A stretch of 38,326 nt of DNA. Source: Candidatus Bathyarchaeota archaeon. Lineage in GTDB: Archaea; Thermoproteota; Bathyarchaeia; Bathyarchaeales; Bathycorpusculaceae. Shown piece by piece: positions 5,024-32,646 of this stretch (position 1 is the stretch's first letter; the number at the start of each line of letters is the position of its first letter). Both the position numbers and the translations under genes were made by a program. The stretch is taken from assembly GCA_003165195.1 (NCBI GenBank), contig PLSP01000045.1:1-38326 (forward strand), read 5' to 3'. Under the pieces are notes generated by a model. That model ran no database searches. It saw only the letters and a program-made list of their open reading frames with translations, and was not told the origin of the DNA.

Positions 5024-7720
5024 TAGAATACGCGAATCTACCAAAACAGCGTACAACTGATTGGACTCGGCTCAGCCGGGACAAACATTGTAGAATCTTT
5101 CCTAAACAACAAAAAAACAAAAGAATTATTGGAAAATGACCTAACACGTCTTTCTCTTTTAGCCATCGATATCGCTGACCCCGAAATCAGAGCCTTGCAA
5201 GAATCTTACGCGCAAATACAGAAATCCATGATTAAAGGCGGCATCCCCGCGGAGAGAATGCGGGTAATAGCCCAGTCAGTAAAGTTTCCAACTGCAGAGG
5301 CAATGTTTGATTTCATCAACCAAAAATTCGCTGAGTACGTAATATGCGAAGGCTCCAAACTTGAAAAATTTGAACCTTGGCTGAGCTCAACGATGGCTAT
5401 TCCTCCTATGGCTGGCGGTGCAGGCAGAAGAAGAGCCCTAGCCAAAGCAATCTACGCCTTAAACTATTATCAACTTGGAATTATTCGAAACTGTATAAAC
5501 GCCTTCAAAGAACAAGCCCTTTCCTCGATCCTAACGCCAACAGTTGTTTTAGTTTACGGTTTAGGAGGCGGCACAGGAAGCGGTATATTTTTTGATTTTG
5601 CCAAACACCTGCGAAAAGTCCTCGGCTCAGGCGTTCCAATAATAGCATTCGTCGTAACCCCATGTGGAGGAGACGACCCGCCTGCAAAAGGGTGCTCGGC
5701 ATTTACCGCAATAAATGAGCTATCACTTTTGCTAAACAAAGATTACAACCAATATGTCATTGACCAATATGGCGAATGCTATCGCAACCCACTTAACGCA
5801 CTCATTTACCTTCCGCTGTTGCCTGCTTTCTCAAAAATCGGTAACATAGTTAATGCCCGTAGAGAAATGGACGACATGGTCGTAGACATGCTTTATGTTC
5901 TGATGGATTTCGACTTAGCTGACTTGCTGGGTGGAATTGGCACAGAAGTCGGACTGACAAATAACTCAGCACACACCTTGGGCATGATGAAAATCAATTA
6001 TCCAGTTGAAGAATACATCAACGCCTACAAGCTTCAATTTGAAGAATTGCAACTTTTGCAGGATTCCAGAAGAGAAAAACTGGACATTTTAGCTGAAATC
6101 GGCGATGTCATAAAAGTCGACTGGGATATCGCAACCGAATTGTTCAAGAGTTACTTGATCAAAACAGGGACATTTAACGAGGAGCAGTTCGATGAGAAAC
6201 TGAAGACCACCATCAACAGCAACCCACGGCTTGAAGAAGATTTAGCCCTGCACGTGAAAGGTGTGGAGATACAGGTTACAAATTGGACAACCGAGATAAT
6301 GAAATTTCTCTCCACGGTAAAATTAATGGGAAAAGCTGGGCCAATTGAAGACGCTATCATTAACTTGACACTCAAAAAAGAAGGCTCAAGAAAACTAGAC
6401 AACATAGAAGTCCTGCTTACCACACTCTCAAAAAACTACCTTGAATTCCGAGAACGGAAAGCTAACATTATGGAGCGGCTAAACCAACTAATTCCCAGCT
6501 CGCAAGTCTTCACGTTGCGGCAAAAGAAGCTCTTAGAGGACCTTGTGAACTTGGCTGAAATCGCTGAGAAATCGCTGGATCTAATGCAGTTTTACGATGA
6601 AACCCGTTATCTAACAGACGCTTTAATACGGTACTATGAAGTGCTGCCGGAGAGTCAAAAGGAACTGCAAGACCTGCGAGATATTCAATCGGAACTAGCA
6701 ACCGTCTACCTAATCATTCAGTTGATGCTTAGAAACCCAGTTGACGAGGCAAAAATGATTGATGAACACGCCACATACGTTAACGAAATAATGGCGCAAA
6801 GGATGCAAAAAAGAGGTGACTTCGACAATGAAGTCATGCGTGTCCAAGAGACTAAAAAACGTAAAGAATTCGATAAAGAAAAGATGGACAGGCAACTACG
6901 TAAGACCTTTGGCGGAAAACGTTACGCCAGAGAACAAATGCTCGATCTTGAGCGCGACCTAAAGAGAATAGAGCAGGAAGAAGCCTTCGCGCTAGATAAC
7001 CTTGACAAAGTAGACGCCACGATCCAGCTTTATGGCAGATTAGGCAAACGTTTTGAACTTGTCTCAGAATACCGCAAACGACTAAACAAAATAGTAGACA
7101 TCGACAGAGAGCACGAAGAAAAAATCGCTGAAATCACATCACCCAAACGTTACTACGAAAAATCCGCTGACCTAACCCAAGCCGAACAACAAAAAATCAT
7201 CTTCAAAATTCTGACCGAACAGGAAGAAAGCCTCACACGAGAAACCATTTTCCGAGACATCATGGACATGGACCACTTCAAAGATTACATGAAGAGCGTA
7301 GTACGCGTATTCAAAACACCAAGCGTCATGGGCTACAAATCGGACTACAAAACTGACTACATCTGGGTAACTGTGCAGTCGCCGCCGAACATGTGGACGG
7401 AAGACATGTCCCAGGAAGTTTACACGGCGCTAGCAGGGTATGTTACCAGCGAAGTTTCAAGAACCATTACCGTCAGGGTAACTGAATCGCGAGACGCATG
7501 GACAACCCGCGTTCTTGTGGTAGGCGGCAGAGGTAAACCAGAAGACATGGAAGCCTACGACGAAATGCAGCTGCTTTACAACAAATCAAACGACTTCGAA
7601 CGGCACCTATCAAGATCTTATCTGATTGAACACAACGTCTCAGCACGACAAATAATCAAGGATTTTAACGCCAACGGCACCGTTACAGAAACCAACGGCA
7701 ACCAAACAAACAAAAAATAG
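5020..7720 (+). CDS. large tubulin/FtsZ-superfamily GTPase with coiled-coil extension (Tubulin_2-like)
   Basis: A ~900-residue GTPase of the tubulin/FtsZ superfamily. Upstream of the track start (TTG 5129) the frame is open and encodes the first nucleotide loop, VQLIGLGSAGTN, so the track start is too late. Other loops follow in order (track numbering): T3-like PMAGGAGRRRALAKAIY (93-109), the signature GLGGGTGSG (144-152), and a T7-like catalytic segment MDFDLADLL (259-267). After the ~340-residue GTPase part comes a long charged coiled-coil region (~430-680) and a C-terminal globular domain with RVLVVGGRGK. The architecture resembles bacterial tubulin-like proteins of the Pfam Tubulin_2 type rather than FtsZ, CetZ or artubulin. 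No ATG/GTG/TTG exists in frame before the T1 loop. GTG 5020, overlapping the previous stop, becomes in frame if one A is removed from AAAA at 5043-5046. Polymerisation is inferred. Confidence 0.82.
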
Positions 7721-7723
7721 TTA

Positions 7724-7743
7724 AAGGAGCGTTTAAGCTCCTT
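7724..7743. terminator. hairpin between convergent genes
   Basis: AAGGAGC-GTTTAA-GCTCCTT is a perfect 7-bp stem with a 6-nt loop, placed between the two convergent stops (7720 and 7733). It could act as a terminator on both strands or stabilise 3' ends. The T-tract is weak. Confidence 0.4.
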
Positions 7744-8884
7744 CCAAAAGATTTTTCGTCATCGCTTGCCACTCTTCCTCTTTTATGGCACCTTTTTTGA
7801 TCGCGCTTGCCTTCAAACTCTTAGTTTTCATTTCATACTCGGAGAACATTTTTGAGGTGTCAAAGCCACCGATAAGTAATGCAACATCGATGCGGTCGCT
7901 TGTGTCTTCGGTGTAGACGGGTTCAGTTATGTAGATTGATTTCAGGTTGGCTTTTTCCTTGAACCACGTTGCTATTGCTAACTCGATTTTTCCTCGCGGC
8001 AGCTTGTCTTTGAGGCTTTCTGGCATACGTATGAGAACATAGAGCAAACCAGCGCTTGGTAAATCAAAGTTCAAAAGTGGCTTAAGCAACGCGGCTTCAA
8101 AGATATTTTCGAGTGATCCATAAATTTTCATACTTGCACCTGAAGCGAGCAATGCGGCAAACATTTTTGTGTTAAATGTTCTTGACAGCTCGGTCACTTC
8201 GTCTGCGAGGGACTCCTTAGACAACAACAAATCCACTAAGTAATTTACGATTAAATTGCCCTTCATCTGAGCTCCACTTCTGTCAACGCCCTCAAAGTTT
8301 TCCAAGCAATCCCTATCCAAAAGCAAAATCGTAGAGTCGTCAATGGAAACGCAGTTTCCAAGTGCTGCAAACGCATTAAAGTATGCATCCGAAGGCTGAA
8401 TTTTGGACGGCAAGATAGCCAGTGATAACGCGTTTTTGTTTGTCTCTTTGAACTTGGATATCAACGTCGGCAAAGAGGCGCTGCCAACTCCATCCCACAC
8501 TGAAGCCACAATGACTACACCGCGCAGCTTCTCGATAGGTTTTTGGCTGAGACTTTCAACAATGCTTTGATTCTGCGAAATATATGGCAATACGTTATAC
8601 CAAAAATGTGTGTTAACATTTGCATCTTCGAAACCTAAAACAAAATGAGGGTTATACCCTTTGGGAATCCACTGGTAAATCTCCTCGCTTGACTTGTCAA
8701 CAAAAATTGCGATGGTTTCCTGGGTTTTGCTATTTAGCTGTTTGAGGAGCAGTTTGATGGGGTATTCGCCGATGCAGACTATGGCTTGTTTAGGTTGAAG
8801 GGGCTTTAATGAATCAATGTGGGTCTTAACGCTTTCCAATACGTTAAAAGCTCCTTTGCCATCCGTCATTAGAGGTACCTGCAT
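7733..8884 (-). CDS. divergent FtsZ/tubulin-fold protein with degraded nucleotide-binding loops
   Basis: Protein of 383 residues with no signal or membrane segment. Its order of segments follows the FtsZ/tubulin fold. A first strand and loop (QAIVCIGEYPIK, 33-44) stands where GxGxxG would be. A strand and loop (VVIVASVWDGVGSASL, 123-138) stand where GGGTGTG would be. NALSLAILPSKIQPSDAYFNA (from 151) resembles the FtsZ segment after it, and IDDSTILLLDRDCL resembles the base-contacting strand. The C-terminal DRIDVALLIGGF resembles the FtsZ C-domain strand. The T1, T4 and T7 residues needed for GTP hydrolysis are missing. It is best read as a pseudo-GTPase partner, by motif order only. It is convergent with the tubulin gene and divergent (46 bp) from the polytopic gene. 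Confidence 0.6.
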   Translation of the reverse strand: MQVPLMTDGKGAFNVLESVKTHIDSLKPLQPKQAIVCIGEYPIKLLLKQLNSKTQETIAIFVDKSSEEIYQWIPKGYNPHFVLGFEDANVNTHFWYNVLPYISQNQSIVESLSQKPIEKLRGVVIVASVWDGVGSASLPTLISKFKETNKNALSLAILPSKIQPSDAYFNAFAALGNCVSIDDSTILLLDRDCLENFEGVDRSGAQMKGNLIVNYLVDLLLSKESLADEVTELSRTFNTKMFAALLASGASMKIYGSLENIFEAALLKPLLNFDLPSAGLLYVLIRMPESLKDKLPRGKIELAIATWFKEKANLKSIYITEPVYTEDTSDRIDVALLIGGFDTSKMFSEYEMKTKSLKASAIKKGAIKEEEWQAMTKNLLEGA

Positions 8885-8929
8885 AAGCTTTAAGAAGAGT
8901 TAGCTAAAATAAGGTTTTAGGTTGTTTGC

Positions 8930-11329
8930 TTGAAAAGGCCCTCTCTTAAAATTCCTAACCTCAAAGGATTTATTAAAAACAGCAAAGAAAAAGAGCAGCA
9001 ACAACGCAACCTTGAATCATCAACGTTGAAAATGCTCACTTTTGCAATCACACTTGTCGCCATGGCGCTCGGCATGTCTTTTCTGCCGCTGTTTCCCCAA
9101 CCGTTACCACTGCTTCTTGCCGTGTTGGTAGCGTTCATAACGTTGAAAGACCCTCGGTTCGGAATGCCGGTAGGCGGCGTCATAATCGGGTTAGGCTTAA
9201 TGTACCATTTATCGATCGCTCCGATTTACTTCATTTCCTACCTCGGAGCAGAACAGATACGCGTTGCATTTGTTTTCGTTTGGATGGCGTTGTTTGTTGC
9301 TTTGCCTGTAATTTTTCACCGCTTTAAAGCTGCCCTCGCAATCGACTTTGGTATATTGTCGGTAACCATGCTGTTCTTCGGCTCAACCTATTTTCTAGCT
9401 ATCCCGTTAATTATGGCTTCAGCAGTGTTCTTCAAAAAATACGTCAGTCTCTCAGTTGTTTACTACGCCTTAATATCTGTGCCTCTGATGATCTCCCAAT
9501 ACTACTTATTCACGGTTAAGCCAATTGTGCAGACTGACTGGTGGAATGTTGCAGGCTCAAGCCCCCCTGTATTCACTTCGCTTTCGCCTATCTTGTCCAA
9601 CATAAACTCGTCGATAAGCCAGTTCCGACTATATGATACATCCCAGTTTATCTACTCCATAACGGGGCAGCTTACATGGACACCTAACATACTGGGGCGC
9701 TCAATGGGGGCAGCTTTCTCCCAGTATCTTGACTCGCTTCCCGGCATATTCATGTTCATGGTTATCTTGGTTGGGCTTGCATCAACAGTCCTCTTCTTCA
9801 CGCAAATCCTAACCAAAGAAGGTTTTATCGGTAGCGGCGACAGGCTTTTCCCCTGCTTCGTAGCCACCATCACCGCAGCCATGTTTTTCATTTTCATAAG
9901 TGCCCTCCAGTATCCTTTGGCTTTCACAGCCGACGTCGGGCCCTCAACCATGGTCTTGGGCATTTTAGCGACGCTTTTCTTCACTCTGCCCGTAGCCTTC
10001 ATGGATTACACGCCCAAGCAGAGCGCAACAACCCCGATTGTGACTCAGAAGGCGCAGACACTTCTTGGCAAACTGCAGACGTTTGAGGCGCAGCTGAACA
10101 ACGTTAAAGCCAGCATCCCCGTAGTTGTAAGTTCCCCTGAAGGAAGGATGTTAGTCATCAAAGACTCACTTGAAGACACTTTAAAGAAATCCAAGGCTGA
10201 ATTTTATGAAACGGTTGAGTTAAACAGGAAATTTGATGAGTTACAACGTTTTGGTAAAGACATTGACAGTTTAGAGGGCGAACTAAACGCCATTCTCTCC
10301 GAGTACCAAGTATTTGTCACATGTGAATACTCTAACTGGGTTGGTAAACTCAAAGACAGCGGCTTAGAAATAAAAACCGCAAACAACATCGTCTTCCAAA
10401 AAGAAATGGCTCTTGACGCAAGAGTAGATGCCATCAAGCAAATCCTTGATGCTGGACGATCCCTCGCCATAGAGGTTGCCCAAATCGCCGAGCCAATCTA
10501 CGCTGTCATCAGACCTCTCTATGACCCTGCCCTTCCAGAGAAAAGCCGATCAATAGAGTTCACTATGCAAAAGCTTGAGCAAAAAGAGGCACCTTGGATA
10601 GCAATCGAAGCTCTCTACAATTCACTAAACAATTGGAAGCGTCAGTACGGCAAAGACATAGTGGCGTCGATGCAATATCTGAAAAACTCGCTTGTACCAA
10701 TAGCTAGCTTAAGCGGGGAAAATGAAGTTTTGCCGCCGATTTTTGGCTCGAAGTTGCCTAAAGTTCTTGATTACGCTAGAAAAGCTGAAGCTATGAAAAC
10801 CACAGGTGACAGAAAAGCTGAGGGCGACCAGCTAAACTTGGTAGACGTCATCTCGCTTAAAGATGACATCCAATCCTTCCTCGATATATCAGAAGACGTT
10901 TTGGGTATGCTTTACTCTCAAGTCGTTAGCGAAGAAGACGCACTTGACCGCCTGTTGCCCACCAAAGATTTCATCTGGGACAAAAACAGCACACTTCGCG
11001 AACGGTTGAAGAAGGCAACCGAAACTCTCTCGAACCCGTCTGGTTACCAAATCAACCAAATAATGCAGAATCTCCCCGGCTATCTCAACTATGTGGATGA
11101 GGCAGTGCAGACGCTGGCGGTTTACAACGAACGCAAAGAATTCCTGCTCAACTATCCCACTGCCGAAGCGGCCATTGAAGACCAACTGAAAAAGAAAAAG
11201 AGCCTCTCACCCCAAGACCTCCCTTTCCAAACAAGGTTTGCAGCCGAATATATGCGACTTTACTATACACAAAGGTTTGGCGACTTTAACTACGACAAAG
11301 AAAACATGCAACTAACAAAAAAGAATTAG
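8930..11329 (+). CDS. polytopic membrane protein with long helical cytoplasmic domain
   Basis: Protein of 799 residues starting at TTG 8930 with no ribosome-binding site, so probably leaderless; a basic N-terminus (KRPSLKIPNLKGFIKNSKEK) precedes the membrane. About eight to nine hydrophobic helices span 35-360, with an extracellular loop around 195-265. From ~370 to 799 the protein is soluble, charged and mostly helical, with several coiled-coil-like stretches (for example ILSEYQVF region and EDALDRLLPTKDF region). I do not recognise a family. Neighbours suggest it is the membrane scaffold of the tubulin-like system, its helical domain facing the filament. It shares a 46-bp divergent promoter region with the FtsZ-fold partner. 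Confidence 0.65.
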   Translation: MKRPSLKIPNLKGFIKNSKEKEQQQRNLESSTLKMLTFAITLVAMALGMSFLPLFPQPLPLLLAVLVAFITLKDPRFGMPVGGVIIGLGLMYHLSIAPIYFISYLGAEQIRVAFVFVWMALFVALPVIFHRFKAALAIDFGILSVTMLFFGSTYFLAIPLIMASAVFFKKYVSLSVVYYALISVPLMISQYYLFTVKPIVQTDWWNVAGSSPPVFTSLSPILSNINSSISQFRLYDTSQFIYSITGQLTWTPNILGRSMGAAFSQYLDSLPGIFMFMVILVGLASTVLFFTQILTKEGFIGSGDRLFPCFVATITAAMFFIFISALQYPLAFTADVGPSTMVLGILATLFFTLPVAFMDYTPKQSATTPIVTQKAQTLLGKLQTFEAQLNNVKASIPVVVSSPEGRMLVIKDSLEDTLKKSKAEFYETVELNRKFDELQRFGKDIDSLEGELNAILSEYQVFVTCEYSNWVGKLKDSGLEIKTANNIVFQKEMALDARVDAIKQILDAGRSLAIEVAQIAEPIYAVIRPLYDPALPEKSRSIEFTMQKLEQKEAPWIAIEALYNSLNNWKRQYGKDIVASMQYLKNSLVPIASLSGENEVLPPIFGSKLPKVLDYARKAEAMKTTGDRKAEGDQLNLVDVISLKDDIQSFLDISEDVLGMLYSQVVSEEDALDRLLPTKDFIWDKNSTLRERLKKATETLSNPSGYQINQIMQNLPGYLNYVDEAVQTLAVYNERKEFLLNYPTAEAAIEDQLKKKKSLSPQDLPFQTRFAAEYMRLYYTQRFGDFNYDKENMQLTKKN

Positions 11330-13320: not shown

Positions 13321-14073
13321 TTAAGATTTTTTTGCGCTATCCCAGTAGTAAAGGAACAGGTCTTTTGCCCAAATTCGAAACGCTGAATCCTTGCCTACAA
13401 AGCCTGAGTAATCTAGCCTTCCGCTGACACAGCGAAATCCCACAGCAGCCTCCTTTTCTGTAACCATGACAAAAACAGGTACATCCGTGCTGATGACTTT
13501 TACCTCAAAGTTCTTTGATGCAGAAGGCGGAATTTCGTAATTTGGTGAATGGACAACTGCTGGTCCAAGAAATCTGAATTGAACTCCAGCAGAGATCTTC
13601 TGGTTTATGAGGTTGTTTAGATTCTCTATTCCAGCGCTCTCGCCGATCCCCCATAGAAACTGCTCAGTTTCTTTGATCATGCATGAAATCAAATTTATGT
13701 TCTGTATAGGGTCCAACTGCAGGTTTGCATGAGATAGCGTCCCTATTCTATCTACAAACTGTGTGGGCAACTGCCAAACGTCATGGGTCGAAAAGTAGTC
13801 TTTATGACTGAAAATAAAATCAAAGGCCAACGTTTGATGGAGCACAAGTTTGCCAAACTCTGTAATTCCATAAGTTGTGTCTGGTTTCTTTTCAACAAGA
13901 AAAGTTTCGGTTAGACGTTGCATTTGCCGAAAAGCTTCGGTTTGTGTTAAATCCAACTGTCTTGCCATATCCTTTAATTTCCTGTTTTTTTGAGCTATTT
14001 CTCTTAGTATGCTTAACCTGCTTTCGCTAGCTAGCTCAAAAAACAACTTTTCAATTCCCTCTCGGCTCTCCAA
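13321..14073 (-). CDS. FilR1-type winged-helix transcriptional regulator
   Basis: Regulator of 250 residues. Residues ~5-75 (IEKLFFELASESRLSILREI then TQTEAFRQMQRL) form an ArsR-like winged helix. The rest matches the FilR1 middle/sensor domain (formerly DUF1724) found in methanogen regulator FilR1 and many archaeal relatives, ending AFRIWAKDLFLYYW. The TTG start has ggtgg upstream. The gene is divergent from the membrane protein at 14178, with an imperfect inverted repeat between them. It is closely related to the broken regulator at 14963-15708. Signal unknown. Confidence 0.8.
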   Translation of the reverse strand: MESREGIEKLFFELASESRLSILREIAQKNRKLKDMARQLDLTQTEAFRQMQRLTETFLVEKKPDTTYGITEFGKLVLHQTLAFDFIFSHKDYFSTHDVWQLPTQFVDRIGTLSHANLQLDPIQNINLISCMIKETEQFLWGIGESAGIENLNNLINQKISAGVQFRFLGPAVVHSPNYEIPPSASKNFEVKVISTDVPVFVMVTEKEAAVGFRCVSGRLDYSGFVGKDSAFRIWAKDLFLYYWDSAKKS

Positions 14074-14094
14074 CTATGCCACCAACACTATTTT

Positions 14095-14123
14095 CACAGA
14101 ATGTGTATTATTCACGTTTTGTG
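14095..14123. promoter_or_regulatory. inverted repeat in divergent FilR1 promoter region
   Basis: CACAGAATGTG (14095-14105) and CACGTTTTGTG (14113-14123) pair at 9 of 11 positions across a 7-bp AT spacer. The position between the regulator and the divergent membrane gene fits an operator. Confidence 0.4.
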
Positions 14124-14177
14124 CAAATAAAAATTATCGCCAACTAAAACGCATAATCTATCAAGGGGTAAATTAGA

Positions 14178-14828
14178 ATGAACGCAACTCGAGTAATCGT
14201 GTCCACCCTTGGGGTGTTAACAGGCATATCGGGCATAAACCACGGGTTTTTCGAAGCCCTCCAGGGAAACCATTCCACAGGAGGTTTCATTATAAATGCT
14301 GTAGGCAAAGGGAACAGCTGGACTGTTTGGAAAAACGGCGGCGAAGGAGCATTTACAGTTATCCCAAACTTCCTCTTAACGGGTATCCTTACCATAATTG
14401 TTGGCGCTTTATTGATTGGTTGGTCTATTGCCTTCATCCATAAAAAAAGAGGCAGCACAGTTTTTCTGCTAATCGCGTTGATGCTTTTTCTTTTAGGAGG
14501 AGGAGTTGCCCAAATTCCCTTTATCATTTTAACGTGGGCAGTTGCAACACGCATAAACAAGCCACTGAACTGGTGGAAAAAAGCTTTTTCAGCAGACTTT
14601 CGAAAATCGATAGCGAATAAGTGGGTAGGGTTGCTGATCGTTTCTTGTTTTATGGTTTTATTGGCTCTCGAACTTGCCATTTTCGGTTTTTTCCCATACG
14701 TAACTGACCTTAATCTGCTTCAACTAATTTGCTGGTCAAACCTTAGTGGTGGCGCAGTTATTCTTTTAATATCCATAATTGCAGGATTTGAATACGACAG
14801 TGAACATAAAGTTATTTCGAAGAGTTAA
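14178..14828 (+). CDS. small membrane protein, paralogue of the 16073 gene
   Basis: Integral membrane protein of 216 residues with about five hydrophobic helices. The first ~125 residues align with the protein at 16073: both begin MNxT, then LGV, HG, E-LQGN, an AxTVIPxF segment, GILTI and a GGGV turn. A second part of ~90 residues, with two more helices, is absent from the shorter paralogue. Start ATG 14178 follows aaggggt. The gene is divergent from a FilR1-type regulator, which probably controls it. Function unknown; no transport or enzyme motif seen. Confidence 0.65.
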   Translation: MNATRVIVSTLGVLTGISGINHGFFEALQGNHSTGGFIINAVGKGNSWTVWKNGGEGAFTVIPNFLLTGILTIIVGALLIGWSIAFIHKKRGSTVFLLIALMLFLLGGGVAQIPFIILTWAVATRINKPLNWWKKAFSADFRKSIANKWVGLLIVSCFMVLLALELAIFGFFPYVTDLNLLQLICWSNLSGGAVILLISIIAGFEYDSEHKVISKS

Positions 14829-14962
14829 AACAAACAAAATATCTTTGGTCGTTGCTTAATATCCCAGTTAGGTGAAGCTTAGTAATGGCTGTAGAAGTCT
14901 ATTGGTTTCAGGGAGAGGCAACTCACTTTGGGTGCTTTGGGAAAAATAACCGAATAAATCTC

Positions 14963-15708
14963 CTAAATTCTTTTGCCCTTTTCCCAGTAGTAAAGGAACA
15001 GATCTTTTACCCAGTTGAGGTATGCTGAGTCAGTGCCGAAAAAGCCAGCATAATCTGGTTTTCCTCCCACTTGGTAAAAACAGACGCCCGCTGCCTTTTC
15101 AGATATAGCGACTATTGCGGGAAGCTTAGATAAGCCTCTTAATTCAACGTTTTTTGGAGTCGGAGGCAAGCTTACCGTTGCTGGAAGACGCTGCGCAGAA
15201 ATGAGCATTTTGACTTGAATTCCCTCTTGGATGCGTTGATTCATTATTGAAGTCATTTGTCCCGGGATGGTGCCTTCGCCTATCCCCCATGCGAACTGCT
15301 TAGCTTCGGTGAACAACTGCGCACCCACATTCAAGTTATTAATCGTATCCATTCCCAACTCTGCACCCGAAAGCTCACCAAGTCTGTTTACAAATTGGTT
15401 GGGCAGGCGCATTAAATCATGCGTCAAGAAATACTGCTTATACTTGGAGATAAAATCTAAAGAGGTTGATATCTGAAGCACCAGTTGCCGTATTCTGCAA
15501 GAGTGAATGTCCCGTCAGGTTGCTTCTGGACCAGCGAAGCCGTGCTCAGCCTTTCCAGCTGCCTAAAAGCCTCAGTTGGAGTCACATCAAGTCGCCGGGC
15601 GATTTCCTGCATCTTGAGATTTTCTTTCTGCAACTCACGCAGTATGCAAAGTCGGTTTTCGCTTGCCAACTCAAAAAACAACTTTTCCAACCCATATTCT
15701 TCACCCAT
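14963..15708 (-). pseudogene. FilR1-type regulator, split by a one-base deletion
   Basis: Two ORFs (15457-15765 and 14963-15481) form one regulator like that at 13321. ATG 15708 aligns with the start of the intact paralogue (GLEKLFFELASENRLCILRE). The N-terminal frame is good through LAEYG, and then the other frame continues LVLQISTSLDF, as the paralogue does (TEFGKLVLHQT). Adding one base at about 15484/15485 (minus strand GGCAACTGG) restores a ~248-residue protein. The sensor part, including the terminal LNWVKDLFLYYW, is otherwise intact. It is either a recent pseudogene or a sequencing error at a short A run; the rest shows no decay. Confidence 0.72.
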
Positions 15709-15737
15709 CTTTTCCACCTTGCCTAAAGTTTGACTCC

Positions 15738-15757
15738 GATGCTTACTCCTTAGCATC
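15738..15757. promoter_or_regulatory. inverted repeat upstream of the 15813 operon
   Basis: GATGCT-TACTCCTT-AGCATC is a 6-bp inverted repeat with an 8-bp spacer between the broken FilR1 gene and the divergent operon. A TATA-like caaataaaac follows at about 15762. It does not resemble the repeat of the first module, so a shared operator is not shown. Confidence 0.3.
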
Positions 15758-15812
15758 TGCATCAAATAAAACTAATCATCACTCTCCGTAATAGTTTCTT
15801 CGAGGAAAGAAA

Positions 15813-16076
15813 ATGCAGAACAAAAGAGCCATCAAAGAACGCGTCTTTTCCGTCGAGCTCAAATCGAAAGGAAACCTAAAAAACGTCACCTTAACCAACG
15901 CCTCCATCGATAGCGTTCTCCTTGAAGGCACAATAGGCGAATTGGTTTACGCATCTTTCATGGAAGGTGTACTCTTAGAGGTTGTGGGCAAGAACGGCAT
16001 TATTCGAGTGGATCTCGGGGCGGAAGAAATCCAAAAACTAACAATAGACAACCGACTGGAAGCGAAAAAACAATGA
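15813..16076 (+). CDS. small hypothetical protein, first gene of the 15813-17834 operon
   Basis: Soluble protein of 87 residues, not recognised. The composition suggests a small all-beta domain: VFSVELKSKGNLKNVTLTNA, then SVLLEGTIGELVYASFMEG and VLLEVVGKNGIIRVDLGAEE, a pattern of alternating strands such as barrel or Sm-like proteins show. The ATG follows cgaggaaag, a good ribosome-binding site. Its stop overlaps the next ATG, so it is coupled to the membrane protein gene. Confidence 0.65.
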   Translation: MQNKRAIKERVFSVELKSKGNLKNVTLTNASIDSVLLEGTIGELVYASFMEGVLLEVVGKNGIIRVDLGAEEIQKLTIDNRLEAKKQ

Positions 16077-16483
16077 ACGGAACAAAAGCAGCAGCATCAA
16101 TTTTAGGGGTTGTTGGTCTTATGGGTGTGTCTCATGGACCGAGCGAAATTCTTCAAGGTAACGTGGTTCCAAAAGGAATTATGATAATGGCTTGGCCTCA
16201 ATTGACTTCTTCACCTCTAGCTGGAGAACCAGCAGTAACTGTCATACCTATTTTTATGGTAGCTGGAATCCTCACCATCACCATGGCGTGTATAGTCATA
16301 GCGTGGGCTGGAACTTGTCTGGAACGTAAGCAAGGTGGATTACTCCTGATATTGCTCTCGCTAGCGATGCTGACAGTCGGCGGAGGCGTTATTCCACCCC
16401 TGTTCGGCATCGCAGCTGGAAGCATTGCTGCAATAACGAACTTCAAAACAAGCGAACGTGACGTTGGAGCCATTAAACCATGA
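16073..16483 (+). CDS. small membrane protein, paralogue of the 14178 gene
   Basis: Membrane protein of 136 residues with three to four hydrophobic helices. It shares with the 14178 protein the N-terminal pattern LGVVGLMGVSHGPSEILQGN, the VTVIPIFMVAGILTI helix and a GGGV turn, in the same order. It starts within the stop of the 87-residue gene and ends within the start of the DUF4386-like gene, so all are co-translated. Function unknown. Confidence 0.65.
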   Translation: MNGTKAAASILGVVGLMGVSHGPSEILQGNVVPKGIMIMAWPQLTSSPLAGEPAVTVIPIFMVAGILTITMACIVIAWAGTCLERKQGGLLLILLSLAMLTVGGGVIPPLFGIAAGSIAAITNFKTSERDVGAIKP

Positions 16484-17268
16484 CAAAGCCACTTGCAGTC
16501 TTACAAACTGATACCGATTCGTGGAAGAGTCTCTATAAAGTCGGCGCGGTGGCCGCTTTGATTGCAGCGTTGGTGTTCAGAAGAAACCTAGGTGCAGCAG
16601 AAATCCCATTGGTCACTGGGATAACGCCGCCAGGCAATGTAGATGGATGGTTCACATTACTCCGTAACAATCCCCTTTTAGGGCTAACTTTGCTCAACTT
16701 TTTTGACATCGCCAACTACGCCTTAGTTGCTGTAATGTTTCTAGCACTATTCGTTGCCCTCAGACAAACCAGCAAAAGCTACACGTTGATCGCTGCAACT
16801 CTCAGTTTCCTAGGCGCTGGGATCTATATCGTTTCAAACTCAGCGCTCCCCATGCTCTCCCTTAGCAACCAATACGCCATAGCTTCTACAGATGCCCAGA
16901 AGTCAACTCTACTTTCAGCGGGGCAGGCAGTGCTTGCCAGCGGATTCAATCCAGGCGCAGTATATCAGAGCACAGGTTTCTATCTAAGTCTGCTGTTTGT
17001 GGCTACTGCGGGCGTGATAATATCTGCCGTAATGTTGCAAAGCCGAATTTTTAGCAAAACAACCGCTTATGTTGGGGTTGTTGCAGGTTCCTTGGATTTG
17101 ATCTATCTTGTCGGCTTAGTTTTCGTGCCGGCGGTCGATGTCCCTCTCTTGGGCATTATCTGTATATCCTCTGGAGGCTTATTCTTGATGATTTGGCATC
17201 TGCTAATAGGGTTAAAAATGTTCAAATTAGGTCGAAATTCAAAGGTCAACGGAGGTGTTAACGCATGA
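16480..17268 (+). CDS. DUF4386-like integral membrane protein
   Basis: Membrane protein of 262 residues with about six helices. The layout (YKVGAVAALIAALVF, then LLNFFDIANYALVAVMFLAL, a loop and GFYLSLLFVATAGVIISAVM) resembles the DUF4386 family of six-helix proteins of unknown function. It overlaps its neighbours by 4 bases on both sides. Family assignment is by pattern only. Confidence 0.6.
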   Translation: MTKPLAVLQTDTDSWKSLYKVGAVAALIAALVFRRNLGAAEIPLVTGITPPGNVDGWFTLLRNNPLLGLTLLNFFDIANYALVAVMFLALFVALRQTSKSYTLIAATLSFLGAGIYIVSNSALPMLSLSNQYAIASTDAQKSTLLSAGQAVLASGFNPGAVYQSTGFYLSLLFVATAGVIISAVMLQSRIFSKTTAYVGVVAGSLDLIYLVGLVFVPAVDVPLLGIICISSGGLFLMIWHLLIGLKMFKLGRNSKVNGGVNA

Positions 17269-17834
17269 GCAAAGCATTAATTGTTTATGGAACCCGTTAT
17301 GGAGCAGCTACAAGCACATCAGAAGAAATCGCAAATACACTTCGACAAAAAGGCATAGAAACTCAAGTAGTGAACGCCAAAGAGCAAAAAGTCAAAGACA
17401 TAGCCCAGTATGACCTAATCGTCGTTGGTAGCGGAATCCAAATTCATAGGTGGACAGGCGAGCCGGAGGATTTCCTTAAGAAACACCAAAAAGAACTTGC
17501 AATCAAAAAGTTGGCGCTTTTCGTCTGTTGCGGTTCGGCCACTGACAAAACTAAACCTGACGCAGCTGAGAAAGCAAGACGAAAATATCTTGAAGAAAAA
17601 GCCGCCAAGTATCATCTGCAGCCCGTCGCATTGGGTTTGTTCGGGGGCATCTACAACTACAATAACGTGCCCTGGTACGCTAAAAAAGCTATGGACATGG
17701 ACCGACCCAGAGTAGCAGCTGCGTATAAGGAAATCGAACCAGGAATCTATGACACAAGAGACCACAACGTCATCTACATATGGGCCGAGGAGATAGCTAA
17801 AATTATAAATTCAAACTTAACCGTGCATCCTTAA
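17265..17834 (+). CDS. flavodoxin-domain protein (HemG/flavodoxin_5-like)
   Basis: Protein of 189 residues. It opens with the FMN phosphate-binding loop KALIVYGTRYGAATSTSEEI and continues DLIVVGSGIQIHRWTGE, the pattern of menaquinone-dependent protoporphyrinogen oxidase-like flavodoxins. CCGSAT at ~91 and NVPWYAKKAMD near 140 fit the same group. It is the last gene of the coupled operon. As no heme genes are nearby, it is more likely a redox partner or detoxification protein than a heme enzyme. Confidence 0.78.
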   Translation: MSKALIVYGTRYGAATSTSEEIANTLRQKGIETQVVNAKEQKVKDIAQYDLIVVGSGIQIHRWTGEPEDFLKKHQKELAIKKLALFVCCGSATDKTKPDAAEKARRKYLEEKAAKYHLQPVALGLFGGIYNYNNVPWYAKKAMDMDRPRVAAAYKEIEPGIYDTRDHNVIYIWAEEIAKIINSNLTVHP

Positions 17835-20061: not shown

Positions 20062-20283
20062 ATGATGGCTCAGGTTCAACTTAGACTACCTGAAAAAACT
20101 TTGCAAGAAATCGACCGTTGGGTGGCTGAAGGAAAATTCAAAAACAGAAGCGATGCCATAAAAACTATAATAAGCCTTTATGAAGAACGCGAAAAAACAC
20201 GCGAGTTCTACCAAATGTTGCTCAAACGTAGCCAGCAAGTCAAAGAGCACCCAGAAACGCTTGTACCTTTAGAGGAAGCATAG
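20062..20283 (+). CDS. ribbon-helix-helix antitoxin
   Basis: Protein of 73 residues. AQVQLRLPEKTLQEIDRWV is the beta strand and first helix and FKNRSDAIKTIISL the second helix of the CopG/ParD-type DNA-binding domain. The C-terminal tail (residues 45-73, EKTREFYQMLLKRSQQVK) would wrap the toxin. Two adjacent ATGs (20062, 20065) are possible. It is followed 5 bases later by the toxin gene and preceded by a perfect palindrome. Confidence 0.85.
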   Translation: MMAQVQLRLPEKTLQEIDRWVAEGKFKNRSDAIKTIISLYEEREKTREFYQMLLKRSQQVKEHPETLVPLEEA

Positions 20284-20288
20284 GCTGC

Positions 20289-20558
20289 TTGGTTTTCAAA
20301 GTTCTATTGCAAGTTAACGCGGCAAAGGCTCTTGGAAAACTCGATGAAGCAAACAGGTCAAGAATTAAAAAGGCACTTGAGGAACTTGCGGCTGACCCGT
20401 GGAAAACTGGGAAACCGCTACACCCCTCTGATTTTTGGAGCATTAGAGCTGGTGACTACCGAGCTGTTTATGAAATACACAAAGATCAAAACCAAATAAT
20501 AGTGCTGTTTATAGGTCACAGAAAAAACGTTTACGATGACTTCTCAAAAATTTATTAA
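20289..20558 (+). CDS. RelE/ParE-superfamily toxin
   Basis: Protein of 89 residues starting at TTG. The order VLLQVNAAKALGKL, then IKKALEELAADPWKTGKPL, IRAGDYRAVYEI and VLFIGHRKNVYDDF is the RelE fold, with the basic/aromatic residues (R, Y, H-R-x-x-V-Y) that cut ribosome-bound mRNA in RelE toxins. The IGHRKNVY end matches active RelE rather than gyrase-targeting ParE, though this is not certain. Confidence 0.85.
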   Translation: MVFKVLLQVNAAKALGKLDEANRSRIKKALEELAADPWKTGKPLHPSDFWSIRAGDYRAVYEIHKDQNQIIVLFIGHRKNVYDDFSKIY

Positions 20559-26820: not shown

Positions 26821-27636
26821 TCAAGCCTTAATTTTAGTGGCTACTTTTAGGGCTGAGGCGGCTGCTTGCAGTTCTTTTAGCATTGCATTAGTATTGTCTT
26901 TGTGTTTTTGGGTTAGGTTGATGAATGCGCTTCCGACGATGACGCCGTCTGCCCCTGCCCCGATAATTCGCGAAACGTGTCCTGGCTTGGAGACTCCAAA
27001 GCCCACTGCCAACGGAATCTTGGCCGCCGTGAAAGGCAGCACCCGTTTGACAAGGGCGATGGTTGAATCTGAAACATCTGTTTGGGTGCCTGTGACGCCG
27101 AAGTGGGAAACGAGATACAGAAAACCCGACGAACACTCAACAATCCGTTTGAGCCGCTCGTTGGAGGTGGATGGGGCGGCTAGAAAGATTGTGTCGACAC
27201 AAGTTTTGCTTGCCGCCTTTTTGTAGTCGCCTGCTTCTTCAATGGGCAAGTCGGGTACAATGACTCCGTCTAATAGGCACTCTTTTGCTAAAGCGAAGAA
27301 TTTGTCGAGGCCCATCCTGAACACTGGGTTGTAATATGTCATGACAGCGATAGGCACGTCATGCCGCAGGCGGATTTCCTTAGCAATTTCAAGAACCTTA
27401 ATGGGAGTTGTTCCAGCCCTTAGCGCCCGTACGCTCGCAGCCTGAATTGTAGGTCCATCGGCGATGGGGTCAGAGAACGGCAAGCCAAGCTCCAGAACGT
27501 CAACGCCACCTTTGATTAATGCATCAGCAATTTTGAGAGTTAAGTCCGGCGTTGGGTCTCCAGCGGTGATGTAGCCGACGAGGGCGCCGTTTCCATTTGC
27601 TTTGGCTTTTTGGAATGCAACCGATATTGAGCTCAT
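26821..27636 (-). CDS. trpA: tryptophan synthase alpha subunit
   Basis: TIM-barrel enzyme of 271 residues that cleaves indole-3-glycerol phosphate to indole and glyceraldehyde 3-phosphate, feeding Trp[21 protein letters not shown] contains the catalytic glutamate and the signature aspartate region, [12 protein letters not shown] the second, and [11 protein letters not shown] with [10 protein letters not shown] the phosphate-binding end. Length is normal. The start overlaps the trpB stop by 4 bases. Last gene of the operon. Confidence 0.95.
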
Positions 27637-28835
27637 ATTTTTACCCCGATGTAATCAGCTATGGTTTCCACGTCTTTGTCGCCTCGCCCTGACAAAGTTA
27701 CAACTATGGACTGCGTCTTTTCCATTTTAGGCGCCAGTTTCATCGCATAAGCTACCGCATGAGAGGACTCCAAAGCGGGTAGAATGCCTTCTTCTCTGGA
27801 TAGAGTAAGGAAAGCTTCTACTGCTTCCTTGTCGGTCGCTGAAACGTATTGTGCCCGCTTGAGTGTTTTCAGAAAAGAATGTTCGGGTCCAACGCCTGGG
27901 TAATCTAAGCCTGCAGATATGCTGTGGGTATTTTGGATTTGCCCATTACTATCCTGGAGAAAGTACGAGAACATTCCGTGGAATACCCCTTCGGAACCCG
28001 CAGATAATGTGGCAGCATGTTTGCCTGTTTCTATGCCTTCACCTGCAGCTTCCACACCATAAAGTTTGACTACAGAGTCATCTTCAAAAAAGTAAAATGT
28101 GCCCATTGCATTGCTTCCGCCGCCCACACAAGCAACCAACGCGTCAGGCAATCTGCCTTCTTTAGTTTGGAATTGCGTTTTGATTTCTTTACCTATAACA
28201 CTTTGAAAATCCCTAACAATCATCGGGTACGGGTGTGGACCCATTGTAGACCCAATCAAGTAATAGGTAGATTCAATGTTAGTTACCCAATCCCTAAAAG
28301 CCTCATTAATGGAGTCTTTGAGGGTTTTTGTGCCCGATTCCACAGGGTGCACTTCAGCGTTTAAAAGTTTCATACGGAACACGTTGAGGCGTTGACGTTC
28401 ACAGTCTTCCGTGCCCATAAATATTTCCGCTTTCAACCCTAAAGCTGCGCAAGCTATCGCGGTGGCTACACCATGCTGTCCAGCTCCAGTCTCAGCAATT
28501 ACACGCGTTTTGCCCATTCGTTTAGCGAGCAACGCCTGTCCGAGTGTGTTGTTGATTTTGTGTGCTCCGCCGTGGGCCAAATCTTCGCGTTTGAGGTAAA
28601 TTTTAGCCCCGCCCAGCTTACGCGTCAAATTCTCAGCGTAATACAACGGGGTCGGTCTGCCCACGAAATCTGCAAGGTAATAGTCGAGTTCTTTTTGGAA
28701 GCCGGGGTCTTTCCTTGCTTGGCCGTAGGCTTCTTCCAGCTCCCTGATTGCCTCCATAAGAACTTCAGGTACGAATCGGCCGCCGTATTTCCCGTATTTG
28801 CTGTCAACTGGGTAACTGCTTATTTTATTTTGCAT
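27633..28835 (-). CDS. trpB: tryptophan synthase beta subunit
   Basis: Pyridoxal-phosphate enzyme of 400 residues joining indole and serine to tryptophan. The PLP lysine lies in [18 protein letters not shown], followed by [12 protein letters not shown] and the phosphate loop GGGSNAMG. Length and the N-terminal [17 protein letters not shown] match the TrpB1 type that works with TrpA, not the standalone TrpB2 type. It overlaps trpC by 11 bases and trpA by 4. Confidence 0.96.
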
Positions 28836-29604
28836 TCACAAACTCCTTGACCTTCTGTTCAATATCGCTGCTTGACATTATGGCTGATCCGATAAGGAAA
28901 GCTCGTGCGCCAGCCTGTTTCAAAAACTCTATGTCTGCGGTTGTGTTGATGCCGCTTTCACTAACAACCAGTTTGCCGTTAGACCCGTTTTCAGCCAGAA
29001 TTCTCTTCGTCACGCCCAAATCAACCTTTAATGTGGATAGGTTGCGGTTGTTTATTCCAACCAAATCTGCGCCTGAAGTTACGGCAGAGCAAAACTCCGC
29101 TTTAGTGTGTGTTTCAAGCAGAACTTCAAGCCCCAACAGATGGGCTCCAAGTATCATTTCATCCACGCTTTTCTCGATGTAGCCTCTATCAAAGAGCGCT
29201 TGAATCAACAAAACAGCGTTTGCCCCCATCTTATAAGCCGACTGGATCTGCACCGGACTCACAATTATGTCTTTCATAAGAATAGGCAACTTCACTGCCC
29301 CTCGAGCCTGAGCTAACGCTTCAAGCGAACCGCTGAACTGCCTGGGTTCAGTTAACACAGATAACCCTGTTGCTCCGCCTCTTTGCATTGCCTTCGCAAT
29401 CTCGCCTGCATCAATGTTTGATCTTATGACGCCAGCGGATGGTGAAGCAGCTTTAATTTCACTTATAACAGGAGCTGCTTTGCAGTTTAGAATTGCCTGC
29501 TTTAAACTGACATGGATACGTTCTGAGGGTTGAGCTTGATCGTAATATTCGTCATCAACGTTTATTTGTGCTACCCGGGCCAGCACATCAAGATAATCAC
29601 GCAT
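28825..29604 (-). CDS. trpC: indole-3-glycerol-phosphate synthase
   Basis: The track starts at 29655, inside trpD; ATG 29604 ([13 protein letters not shown]) is a better start, overlaps the trpD end by a few bases and gives 259 residues, usual for the enzyme. [17 protein letters not shown] carries the catalytic lysine and SPS motif, LMKDIIV the second lysine, and [11 protein letters not shown] plus VSESGI the product-binding residues. It closes the indole ring. No fused phosphoribosylanthranilate isomerase domain is present. Confidence 0.94.
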
Positions 29605-30658
29605 ATTTCTCTTCAAACTCCTTAAGTTTAGACTCACTACCCCCCGAAGCCACAATTAAACCTTTAAGCTTACGGTAGGCAGCACCACTTATGATTGATT
29701 CACGAGCTAACTCCATACCCCCTTCAAAATCCTCAGCTCCCCCGCCAACAACAATTCCTGCAGCACTGTTAACAAGGGCAAACTCCACTTTGGGATCGTC
29801 GAGGGCAAGATTGCCGCTCACAATTCTGAAGAAAACTTCAGCGTTTTCCTGGGCGGCTGCCAACTTCAAATCTGCAATGGATGCTTTCTCTACTTTGAAA
29901 TCGCTTGGAGAAACCTCAAACTCTTGTACTTCGCCGTTCTTTAACCATGCAACAACGGTTTTTCCAACAGTTGACACCTCATCCAAACCATCTAAACCGT
30001 GGACAACCATGGCTTCTTCACAGCCCAAACGTTTCAAAGCATAAGCCAACGGCGCAGTCAACTTCTGGTCGTAAACTCCTAAGAGCTGCGCGTTTGCAGA
30101 TGCAGGGTTAGTTAATGGACCCAGAAGGTTGAAAACGGTGCGAATGCCAATTTCCCGTCTCGGTTCAGCCGCATACATCATTGCAGGATGAAAAGCTGGG
30201 GCAAACATGAAGCCGATGCCCACCGTCTCAATGATGCGCTCAACCTCTTTAGGCTGCAAATCTAAATTGAGCCCAAGCTTTTCCAGCACGTCGGCGCTTC
30301 CACTTTTGCTTGTAACCGCCCTGTTCCCATGCTTAGCAACTGCGACACCTGCGCCCGCAATCACGAATGCCGCTGCAGTGCTGACGTTGAAAGTTTTGAT
30401 TTTGTCTCCGCCCGTACCGCAAGTGTCAACAAGGCGGCTTTGCACATGGGGGTGGATTTTGATGCTGTGCTCGCGCATTACCGCGGCAAAAGCAATTAGT
30501 TCCTCAACAGCTTCGCCTTTCATTCGCAATGCTGTTAGAAAAGCCGCTGTCTGCGAGCTTGTTGCTTTACCTGAAATGACTTCACGCATGATTTCCCCTG
30601 ACTCATCGCTTGTTAAGCTGTTGCCTTCAATGAGTTTCTGTATGCCTTCCCGAATCAT
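29597..30658 (-). CDS. trpD: anthranilate phosphoribosyltransferase
   Basis: Enzyme of 353 residues that attaches phosphoribose from PRPP to anthranilate. DTCGTGGDKIKTFNVSTAAA is the glycine-rich PRPP loop, VAKHGNRAVTSKSGSADVLE the second signature, and residues GLDGLDEVSTVGKT the family segment. The start overlaps the trpG stop by 4 bases. Length is normal. Confidence 0.95.
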   Translation of the reverse strand: MIREGIQKLIEGNSLTSDESGEIMREVISGKATSSQTAAFLTALRMKGEAVEELIAFAAVMREHSIKIHPHVQSRLVDTCGTGGDKIKTFNVSTAAAFVIAGAGVAVAKHGNRAVTSKSGSADVLEKLGLNLDLQPKEVERIIETVGIGFMFAPAFHPAMMYAAEPRREIGIRTVFNLLGPLTNPASANAQLLGVYDQKLTAPLAYALKRLGCEEAMVVHGLDGLDEVSTVGKTVVAWLKNGEVQEFEVSPSDFKVEKASIADLKLAAAQENAEVFFRIVSGNLALDDPKVEFALVNSAAGIVVGGGAEDFEGGMELARESIISGAAYRKLKGLIVASGGSESKLKEFEEKYA

Positions 30659-31242
30659 GGCCGATTTCCATCCAAGAAGTTTTTAATTATAATTTTGCCG
30701 TCTTCGCAAAGAATCGACTCAGGGTGGAATTGGACGCCGTCAATTGGAAATTTGACATGCCTAACCGCCATAATTTCCCCGTCATCAATACATTCAGCAC
30801 TGATTTCAAGACACGACGGAACAGATGAGCGTTCTCCTGCTAGCGAGTGATACCGCGTAGCCGTGAAGGGATTGCGAACGCCTTTAAAGATGCCCTTTTG
30901 GTCATGTTCTATGGTGCAGGTTTTGCCGTGCATTAGACGCTTGGCATGGACGATTTTGCCGCCAAAAGCATGGATTATTCCCTGATGCCCCAGACAGACA
31001 CCTAAAGTGGGAATGGAAGGGCTCATTGTTTGAAGGATTTTTGTGCACACCCCGAAGTACTTTTCATCTTCAGGGGTACCTGGCCCCGGTGAGATAACTA
31101 TTCGGTCAGGATTTAGCAGCCTCAATTCTTCCAACGTTACTTTGTTGTTTCTGTAGACTATTGGTTCAGCGCCCAACTCGCCGATGTACTGTACTATGTT
31201 ATACACAAATGAGTCGTAGTTGTCAATCACAACAACCTTCAC
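30655..31242 (-). CDS. trpG: anthranilate synthase glutamine amidotransferase subunit
   Basis: Class I amidotransferase of 195 residues supplying ammonia to TrpE. The catalytic cysteine is in LGVCLGHQGI, the oxyanion strand is VISPGPGTPEDE, and the histidine and glutamate are in VQFHPESIL. The start overlaps the trpE stop by 4 bases, supporting tight co-translation. A para-aminobenzoate role (pabA) is possible, but the trp context favours TrpG. Confidence 0.94.
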   Translation of the reverse strand: MKVVVIDNYDSFVYNIVQYIGELGAEPIVYRNNKVTLEELRLLNPDRIVISPGPGTPEDEKYFGVCTKILQTMSPSIPTLGVCLGHQGIIHAFGGKIVHAKRLMHGKTCTIEHDQKGIFKGVRNPFTATRYHSLAGERSSVPSCLEISAECIDDGEIMAVRHVKFPIDGVQFHPESILCEDGKIIIKNFLDGNRP

Positions 31243-32646
31243 TTAGGCGCACCTCCAGCCATCTCCAGCGCCTTCATAAGCGCCCTTGCTTTGTGTTCCG
31301 TTTCAAACCACTCCTGCTCTGGTACAGAATCAGCTACGACGCCTCCGCCTGCTTGGATGTAGGCTTGGTTTTTGTCGGCGAAGAGAGTGCGGATGGTTAT
31401 GGCGAAGTCTGCGTTGCCATTGTAGGAAAAGTAGCCGACGGCTCCAGCATAGGGCCCACGCCTAGCAGGTTCCAACTCGTCAATTATCTCCATTGCCCGC
31501 ACCTTTGGGGCTCCAGAAACCGTTCCCGCAGGAAAAACAGCCCGCAGTGCATCGTAACTTTGAAGATTATCGCGAAGCTGCCCCACTACTCGAGAAACAA
31601 TGTGTTGCACATGACTGTACTGATGGACTTTCATGAATTCGGGAACATGAACACTTCCAAACTTAGAGATTCTGCCCACATCGTTTCGCGCTAAATCAAC
31701 AAGCATTACATGTTCAGCCCGTTCTTTTGGGTCGGCTAATAATTCAGCGACTAATCTGTCGTTTTCGACTGGATCTTGAGCAACCGGTCGGGTGCCTGCA
31801 ATTGGGAAGGTTTCAACCGTCCTATCTTCGACTCGGACAAGCATTTCTGGGCTTGCTCCAACGATTTGCCGCTCGTTGGACTTGTAAAAGAACATGTAGG
31901 GAGACGGGTTGATGGTTCTGAGCGCCTCATAGAATGGGACCAAATTGCCGTTTGTTTGGAACTGGAAGCGTTTAGAGGGAACAACTTGGAAGATGTCTCC
32001 AGCGGTTATGTATTCTTTTGCTTTTTGTACTGCTGCCTCATAGGTTTCTTTTCTTATGTTTACTTTGGGCTCAGTGTATGTTAACAATTCTTGGTCAATA
32101 GGCTGCTTCAGCAGGTGTTCAACCTCAGGTAGACGGTTTTCGCCGCGGTAATAGTAGTAGGCTTGTTTTTTTATATGGTTGAAAGCTAAGCCGTCATCAA
32201 ATATGCCCATTTCTAAGTCGGGAAAACCCAGTTCTGCTTTCCCATTCTCCGGTAGGCTTTCCCAGTAGTGAACAGCATCATAGGAAATATATCCGACTGC
32301 TCCGCCGACGAATCGAAATTCGCTGTTGGAAGAGGCTTGATCTTTGAGGAGGCGCTCTAAAATTTGGAGTGGGTCTTTTGTTTGCTCCGTGATTGTTTGT
32401 CCTGTTTGTTGATTTTGGATTTGGGCTATGCCGTTTTTTGTTTGGAGGGTTATTTTTGGGTCGAATCCAATAAACGAGTATTGGGCTAGTTTTTTTGGTC
32501 CTTCGATGGATTCTAAAAGATAGGTTGTTTGGTATTGTTTTTGGAGTTTTGAAAATATTTCGAGGGGTTGCTGTTGGAGCGAAATCTGTTGGATTTTTAG
32601 GGCGTCTGCTGATTTAGGTTTTGTTGTGCCAAAGGCGATTCCCCAT
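31239..32646 (-). CDS. trpE: anthranilate synthase component I, with start offset by one base
   Basis: Chorismate-using enzyme, first of the pathway. The track shows only the last 323 residues, from ATG 32210. The frame is open further upstream and encodes the TrpE N-terminal domain, including TTYLLESIEGPKKLAQYSFI (the feedback-site LLES) and FRFVGGAVGYISYD. The catalytic part has SPEMLVRVE, IAGTRP, DLARNDVGRI and GTVSGAPKVRAMEI. No ATG/GTG/TTG precedes the N-terminal domain in frame. ATG 32646, with AGGAG 8-9 bases upstream and a TATA at 32688-32694, fits perfectly if GGGG (32641-32644) is read as GGG, giving GIAFGTTKP and 468 residues. A one-base assembly error or recoding is likely. Confidence 0.88.

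Follow-up and report, generated by a model that had tools for sequence, protein, structure and literature searches.

In this study, the most conserved neighbour of the FilR1-type regulators at an archaeal locus was found to be p87, a protein of 87 residues, rather than the membrane protein on which an earlier note on this DNA had centred. Sequence comparison establishes the pairing of regulator and p87, the redox bias of the genes behind p87, a conserved palindrome with an adjoining promoter-like box, and the placement of the two local regulators, FilA and FilB, in different subclades. The unit is real and recurs in archaea; the p87 partner and the cassette are new, and the regulator family is already known.

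Results

Gene content of the locus

The window, that is, the whole stretch of 38,326 nucleotides that was analysed, is part of a draft archaeal genome assembly (contig 41), and all genes named in the earlier note are present in it. The features of the locus are as follows.

13321-14073, minus strand: FilA, a receiver-less FilR1-type winged helix-turn-helix (wHTH) regulator of 250 aa (HVO_A0261_N 37.6 bits, Pfam cut-off 35; FilR1_middle, PF08350, 32.8 bits, cut-off 27)
14095-14123, no strand: FilA/MemA palindrome, candidate operator; a 29-bp dyad with 11/14 complementary pairs
14124-14138, plus strand: promoter box CAAATAAAAATTATC, putative BRE/TATA, common to FilR1/p87 loci (second-best window site for the class-1 position model; intergenic comparison)
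14178-14828, plus strand: MemA, long form (216 aa) of a membrane protein family (homology to MemB and to solitary homologues)
14963-15708, minus strand: FilB, a FilR1-type regulator with a one-base frameshift near 15490 (pieces 15708-15457 and 15481-14963)
15738-15757, no strand: FilB/p87 palindrome GATGCTTACTCCTTAGCATC, candidate operator (sole exact pattern match in its own genome; best site of the upstream model)
15763-15777, plus strand: promoter box CAAATAAAACTAATC, putative BRE/TATA (found exactly 16 times across 91 genomes, with 11 of these sites at p87 loci)
15813-16076, plus strand: p87, an 87-aa soluble partner protein of an undescribed family (23/26 homologues head-to-head with a FilR1-type gene)
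16073-16483, plus strand: MemB, short form (136 aa) of the membrane protein family (48-57% identical to MemB of G015, G019 and G024)
16480-17268, plus strand: DUF4386 membrane protein (Pfam PF14329, 33.3 bits, cut-off 27.6), an insertion limited to the cassette of the window species
17265-17834, plus strand: flavodoxin (Flavodoxin_5, PF12724, 1.3e-23; distantly HemG-like), the final operon gene

Translational coupling is indicated by the ATGA overlap of p87 and MemB, and the genes for MemB, DUF4386 and flavodoxin are likewise coupled through 4-nt overlaps. Elsewhere in the window, two tubulin/FtsZ-like proteins (863 aa, Tubulin_2 7e-10; 383 aa, weak Tubulin) adjoin a 799-aa membrane protein at 5129-11329, an unusual cytoskeletal cluster. 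Inspection by eye also picked out a tryptophan biosynthesis cluster at 26821-32210 on the minus strand (trpA, B, C, D, G, E-like), and two small adjoining ORFs at 20062-20558 (73 and 89 aa) that resemble a ribbon-helix-helix antitoxin and a RelE-type partner.

Pairing of p87 with FilR1-type genes

The p87 profile matched 26 places in 20 of the 163 genomes of the order. Across the order p87 lies head-to-head with a FilR1-type gene at 23 of the 26 loci, which are related by descent, so that the counts are not independent trials; in G017 only the wHTH part of the regulator is involved, the gene being shortened to ~103 aa. The three exceptions comprise two loci without a regulator nearby (G018:C52, G008:C129) and one with the regulator one gene off on the same strand (G008:C100). 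One p87 match, in G030, holds a stop. In two distant Thermoproteota families (G196/L157 and G262/L158), a p87-like gene lies immediately downstream of a FilR1-like gene, or overlaps it, in the same orientation. The profile matches of these regulators are at 2e-13 and 2e-18, and their N-terminus is HVO_A0261_N-like, weakly so in G262. That adjacency is kept despite the altered gene order is the best evidence that p87 and the regulator work together.

No described family accounts for p87, as searches of Pfam, NCBIfam, PADLOC and PDB sequences returned no match; a plasmid search gave none either. Its structure model (pLDDT 71) has six strands and a C-terminal helix; a Foldseek search of the PDB with this model yielded 0 matches at E<=0.001, and the weak best fold matches include PH-like domains, which are often adaptors.

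Redox genes behind p87

The intact unit, a FilR1-type regulator divergent to p87-MemB-flavodoxin, is found in three other species (G015/L034, G019/L035, G024/L036), and DUF4386 is missing from all three cassettes. The earlier note had proposed that the second module gained p87, DUF4386 and the flavodoxin; only DUF4386 is an extra in comparison with these relatives, and p87, the most conserved neighbour of the regulators, was not gained. The window flavodoxin (84.4 bits against the Flavodoxin_5 cut-off of 27) is 66-67% identical to the cassette flavodoxins of G015, G019 and G024, and its closest named relatives are in Candidatus Bathyarchaeota genomes.

Flavodoxin-fold proteins are encoded behind p87 at 13 of the 23 loci (the window, G015, G019, G024, G063, G017, G083, G460, G174, G062, G031 twice, and G226), against a background of 111 Flavodoxin_5 matches in 13 genomes, or ~8.5 per genome. 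Two of the 13 (G174, G062) are fused to 4Fe-4S domains, and a ferredoxin cargo, a 4Fe-4S membrane protein, occurs at one further p87 locus (G000:C37). Genes that come after the unit in G262 encode ferritin-like, nitrate-reductase-gamma-like and Fe-S/CCG proteins. Four FilR1 relatives that lack p87 also oppose flavoproteins, namely two FMN reductases (G000:C2, G018:C19) or an FAD oxidoreductase (G015:C59, G031:C1). Taken together, the partners of the regulator family are flavodoxins, flavodoxin-ferredoxin fusions, ferredoxins, FMN reductases and FAD oxidoreductases, and the description of the locus as an uncharacterised redox cassette is borne out by this repeated arrangement. Other p87 cargo consists of an acyltransferase (G016) or proteins without a clear family (G029:C17, G027), and at two loci the next gene is hundreds of bases off and apparently unrelated (PurE-like in G059, a proteasome subunit in G029:C52); such non-redox or unrelated neighbours count against a redox unit. 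Control of redox genes is well supported by gene context.

The two consecutive FMN-reductase/flavodoxin-fold genes opposite a p87-less FilR1 relative form a second recurring cassette, seen in G000 and G018 (L128:4127-6429, L136:4376-6686).

It is possible, though on the unlikely side, that p87 is a small accessory of the electron-transfer cargo, such as a flavodoxin partner or a membrane adaptor, and adjoins the regulator merely as the first gene of the operon. Its translational coupling to MemB, the flavodoxin-fold cargo at 13/23 loci and the PH-like domains among its weak fold matches would suit such a role. However, p87 keeps its place next to the regulator even where an acyltransferase or unknown membrane proteins form the cargo, the surroundings of most flavodoxin homologues found elsewhere lack p87, and p87 shares the regulator's transcription direction in the two distant families.

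Regulators and candidate operators

FilA and FilB are homologous (42% identity). FilA exceeds both Pfam cut-offs, and the pieces of FilB fall slightly below them (HVO_A0261_N 34.7 bits against 35; FilR1_middle 25.7 against 27). FilB is read in two frames, 15708-15457 for the wHTH and 15481-14963 for the C-terminal part, and is one base short near 15490 compared with its homologues; a sequencing error and a real mutation look alike here. The claim of two FilR1-type regulators thus holds for their homology, but the second is not an intact gene. Alignment places the likely start of FilB at the ATG at 15708, leaving a 104-nt intergenic region similar to that of relatives. A Pfam search found no match in FilA or FilB to the receiver domain that is C-terminal in Methanosaeta FilR1; because of this and the 250-aa length of FilA, both are FilR1-like regulators by sequence and not response regulators. 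The regulator and p87 alignments each lack a conserved cysteine, which speaks against a thiol switch in either protein. An anti-phage role was also considered and rejected, as the PADLOC matches were only generic wHTH matches to CARF/Csa3 models.

The intergenic regions have in common CAAATAAAAnTAATC, directly 3' of the palindrome. The putative BRE/TATA box, CAAATAAAA(C/G)TAATC, mostly lies 38-42 nt upstream of the p87 start; the palindrome before it is GATGCTTA-N4-TAAGCATC-like at class-1 (flavodoxin) loci and another dyad at class-2 loci. Against the 16 box matches in 91 genomes, the reversed control gave 4. The box usually has one site per genome and the GATGCTTACTCCTTAGCATC palindrome pattern one exact site in its own genome; no genome-wide regulon was seen in the exact palindrome search of that genome or the box search of the 91 genomes. 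Sites this close to unique suggest that control is confined to the adjacent operon.

A class-1 position model was built from six other genomes with the window left out. It ranked the FilB/p87 intergenic region first (56.5) and the FilA/MemA intergenic region second (13.6), the next window site scoring 1.4; the FilA/MemA match falls in the box. An equally out-of-sample upstream model placed its best site at the FilB/p87 palindrome (31.2, next 9.5). The class-2 operator model did not recognise the dyad upstream of FilA, which has the box alone in common. The repeat at 14095-14123 reported in the earlier note is real: of 38,298 positions in the window, only 2 reach its 11/14 pairing.

That the second module is decaying, with FilB a pseudogene and regulation of the operon lost, appears doubtful. 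The frameshift in FilB would fit such decay, as would the shortened regulator of G017 and the stop in the G030 p87 match. Yet the FilB frame beyond the shift remains open for 172 aa and is 42-62% identical to relatives; the palindrome, box, p87, MemB and flavodoxin are all intact, and a single-base error in the draft assembly explains the frameshift equally well.

Membrane proteins and history of the two modules

MemA and MemB belong to one paralogous family, as had been proposed: their identity is 37% across 130 aa (E=5e-17), and 23 columns of the family alignment are invariant, among them those of the HG..E.LQGN and GGG signatures. No Pfam, NCBIfam, PADLOC or PDB sequence matched either protein, and the fold model of MemB (pLDDT 53) was too low for a fold search. 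Apart from DUF4386, the order of genes around MemB is the same in G015, G019 and G024. Along its full length MemA shares 37-38% identity with the solitary homologues of G063 and G026, which also have its C-terminal extension. At L037:6515-7688, the solitary long homologue of G063 precedes a flavodoxin gene of the same orientation and has no FilR1 gene with it, pointing to a link of membrane protein and flavodoxin that is independent of the regulator. A plasmid search with MemA gave a single match, a Chloroflexota protein (L156:3995-4612) that carries the Mem signature and matches the family profile, indicating that the family extends to bacteria; it is distant (tblastn E=0.09), and no flavodoxin adjoins it.

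A maximum-likelihood tree places FilB among the flavodoxin-cassette regulators of other species (support 97/95) and FilA outside that group, joining the class-2 subclade with moderate support (84/82); this subclade is nested in a larger clade whose remaining members have p87. Given these positions and the likeness of MemA to solitary homologues, the modules are, on sequence grounds, two distinct paralogous lineages that lie next to each other, and p87 was probably lost from FilA/MemA. The view of a duplicated regulator/membrane-protein module is thus not upheld, since the regulators fall in different subclades, MemA is nearest in form to the solitary long homologues, and it is p87 that recurs as the partner. 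Although the two membrane proteins are related, their plain pairing with a regulator does not recur elsewhere; a FilR1 gene opposite a membrane protein without p87 was met in this window only. A local duplication whose second copy later gained p87, DUF4386 and the flavodoxin would account for two adjoining modules of one divergent layout whose regulators and membrane proteins are homologous, but is very improbable, as FilB is nearer to other species' regulators than to FilA (97/95), the long form of MemA is common to solitary homologues elsewhere, and p87-bearing loci are the common state.

Discussion

We consider it probable that both regulators of the locus belong to an archaeal family controlling local flavin and iron-sulfur electron-transfer genes, with p87 as a modulator. 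The full unit would rather likely consist of a receiver-less FilR1-type regulator, a palindromic operator directly next to a box of BRE/TATA type, and a divergent p87 followed by redox cargo. A FilR1-type dimer may bind the palindrome through its wHTH, and its C-terminal domain may sense a redox-linked small molecule or protein; the absence of both a receiver domain and a conserved cysteine points to a ligand or protein signal. The regulator would then switch on the operon and adjust its own expression. Activation is a first guess, given that FilR1 of Methanosaeta binds the promoter of its own gene and stimulates its targets in an E. coli reporter (PMC3991700). p87 may bind the regulator as a modulator or feedback partner; it would not be strictly needed, because FilA, if functional, acts without it. 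The flavodoxin presumably carries electrons, with MemB as its possible membrane partner, and FilA/MemA would be a p87-less offshoot retaining the promoter box.

A more tentative proposal is that p87 is the first member of a new family of small co-regulators in archaea, forming with receiver-less FilR1-type factors a redox- or flavin-responsive pair that replaces the canonical kinase/receiver input of FilR1. The pair might be old, given its occurrence in distant Thermoproteota families with another gene order, and might move between electron-transfer operons.

To our knowledge, redox-state sensing in Bathyarchaeia is poorly known, and none of the papers searched combined flavodoxin, Bathyarchaeia and a transcriptional regulator. 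The unit bears on the signal input of receiver-less FilR1-type (DUF1724) regulators; with a recurring partner, a defined candidate operator and redox cargo, this question can be tested in vitro with three small parts.

Among known systems, FilI/FilR1/FilR2 of Methanosaeta harundinacea (PMC3991700, PMC5847659) shares the wHTH and FilR1_middle (DUF1724) makeup, and own-promoter binding is known for its FilR1. However, Methanosaeta FilR1 is a 54 kDa protein with a receiver, whereas FilA has 250 aa and no receiver was found in it; here no kinase gene adjoins, the partner is p87 and the cargo a flavodoxin, in place of methanogenesis genes. MsrC and MsrX of Methanosarcina acetivorans also combine HTH and DUF1724 (PMC11784639), and MsrC, a related regulator, is linked to the heterodisulfide redox state (PMC11619418); they differ, by their descriptions rather than their sequences, in controlling methyltransferase genes and in that their descriptions mention no p87. 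TrmBL2 structures of the TrmB family are matched by the C-terminal part of the regulator profile (3e-8), but the N-terminal part matches the ArsR type, and the sugar-gene context of that family is absent here. Finally, the window flavodoxin matches the NCBIfam model of HemG, the menaquinone-dependent protoporphyrinogen IX dehydrogenase (E 1.1e-14), as well as Flavodoxin_5; at 54.7 bits against a cut-off of 142, HemG identity was rejected, and the protein is best described as a distantly HemG-like flavodoxin.
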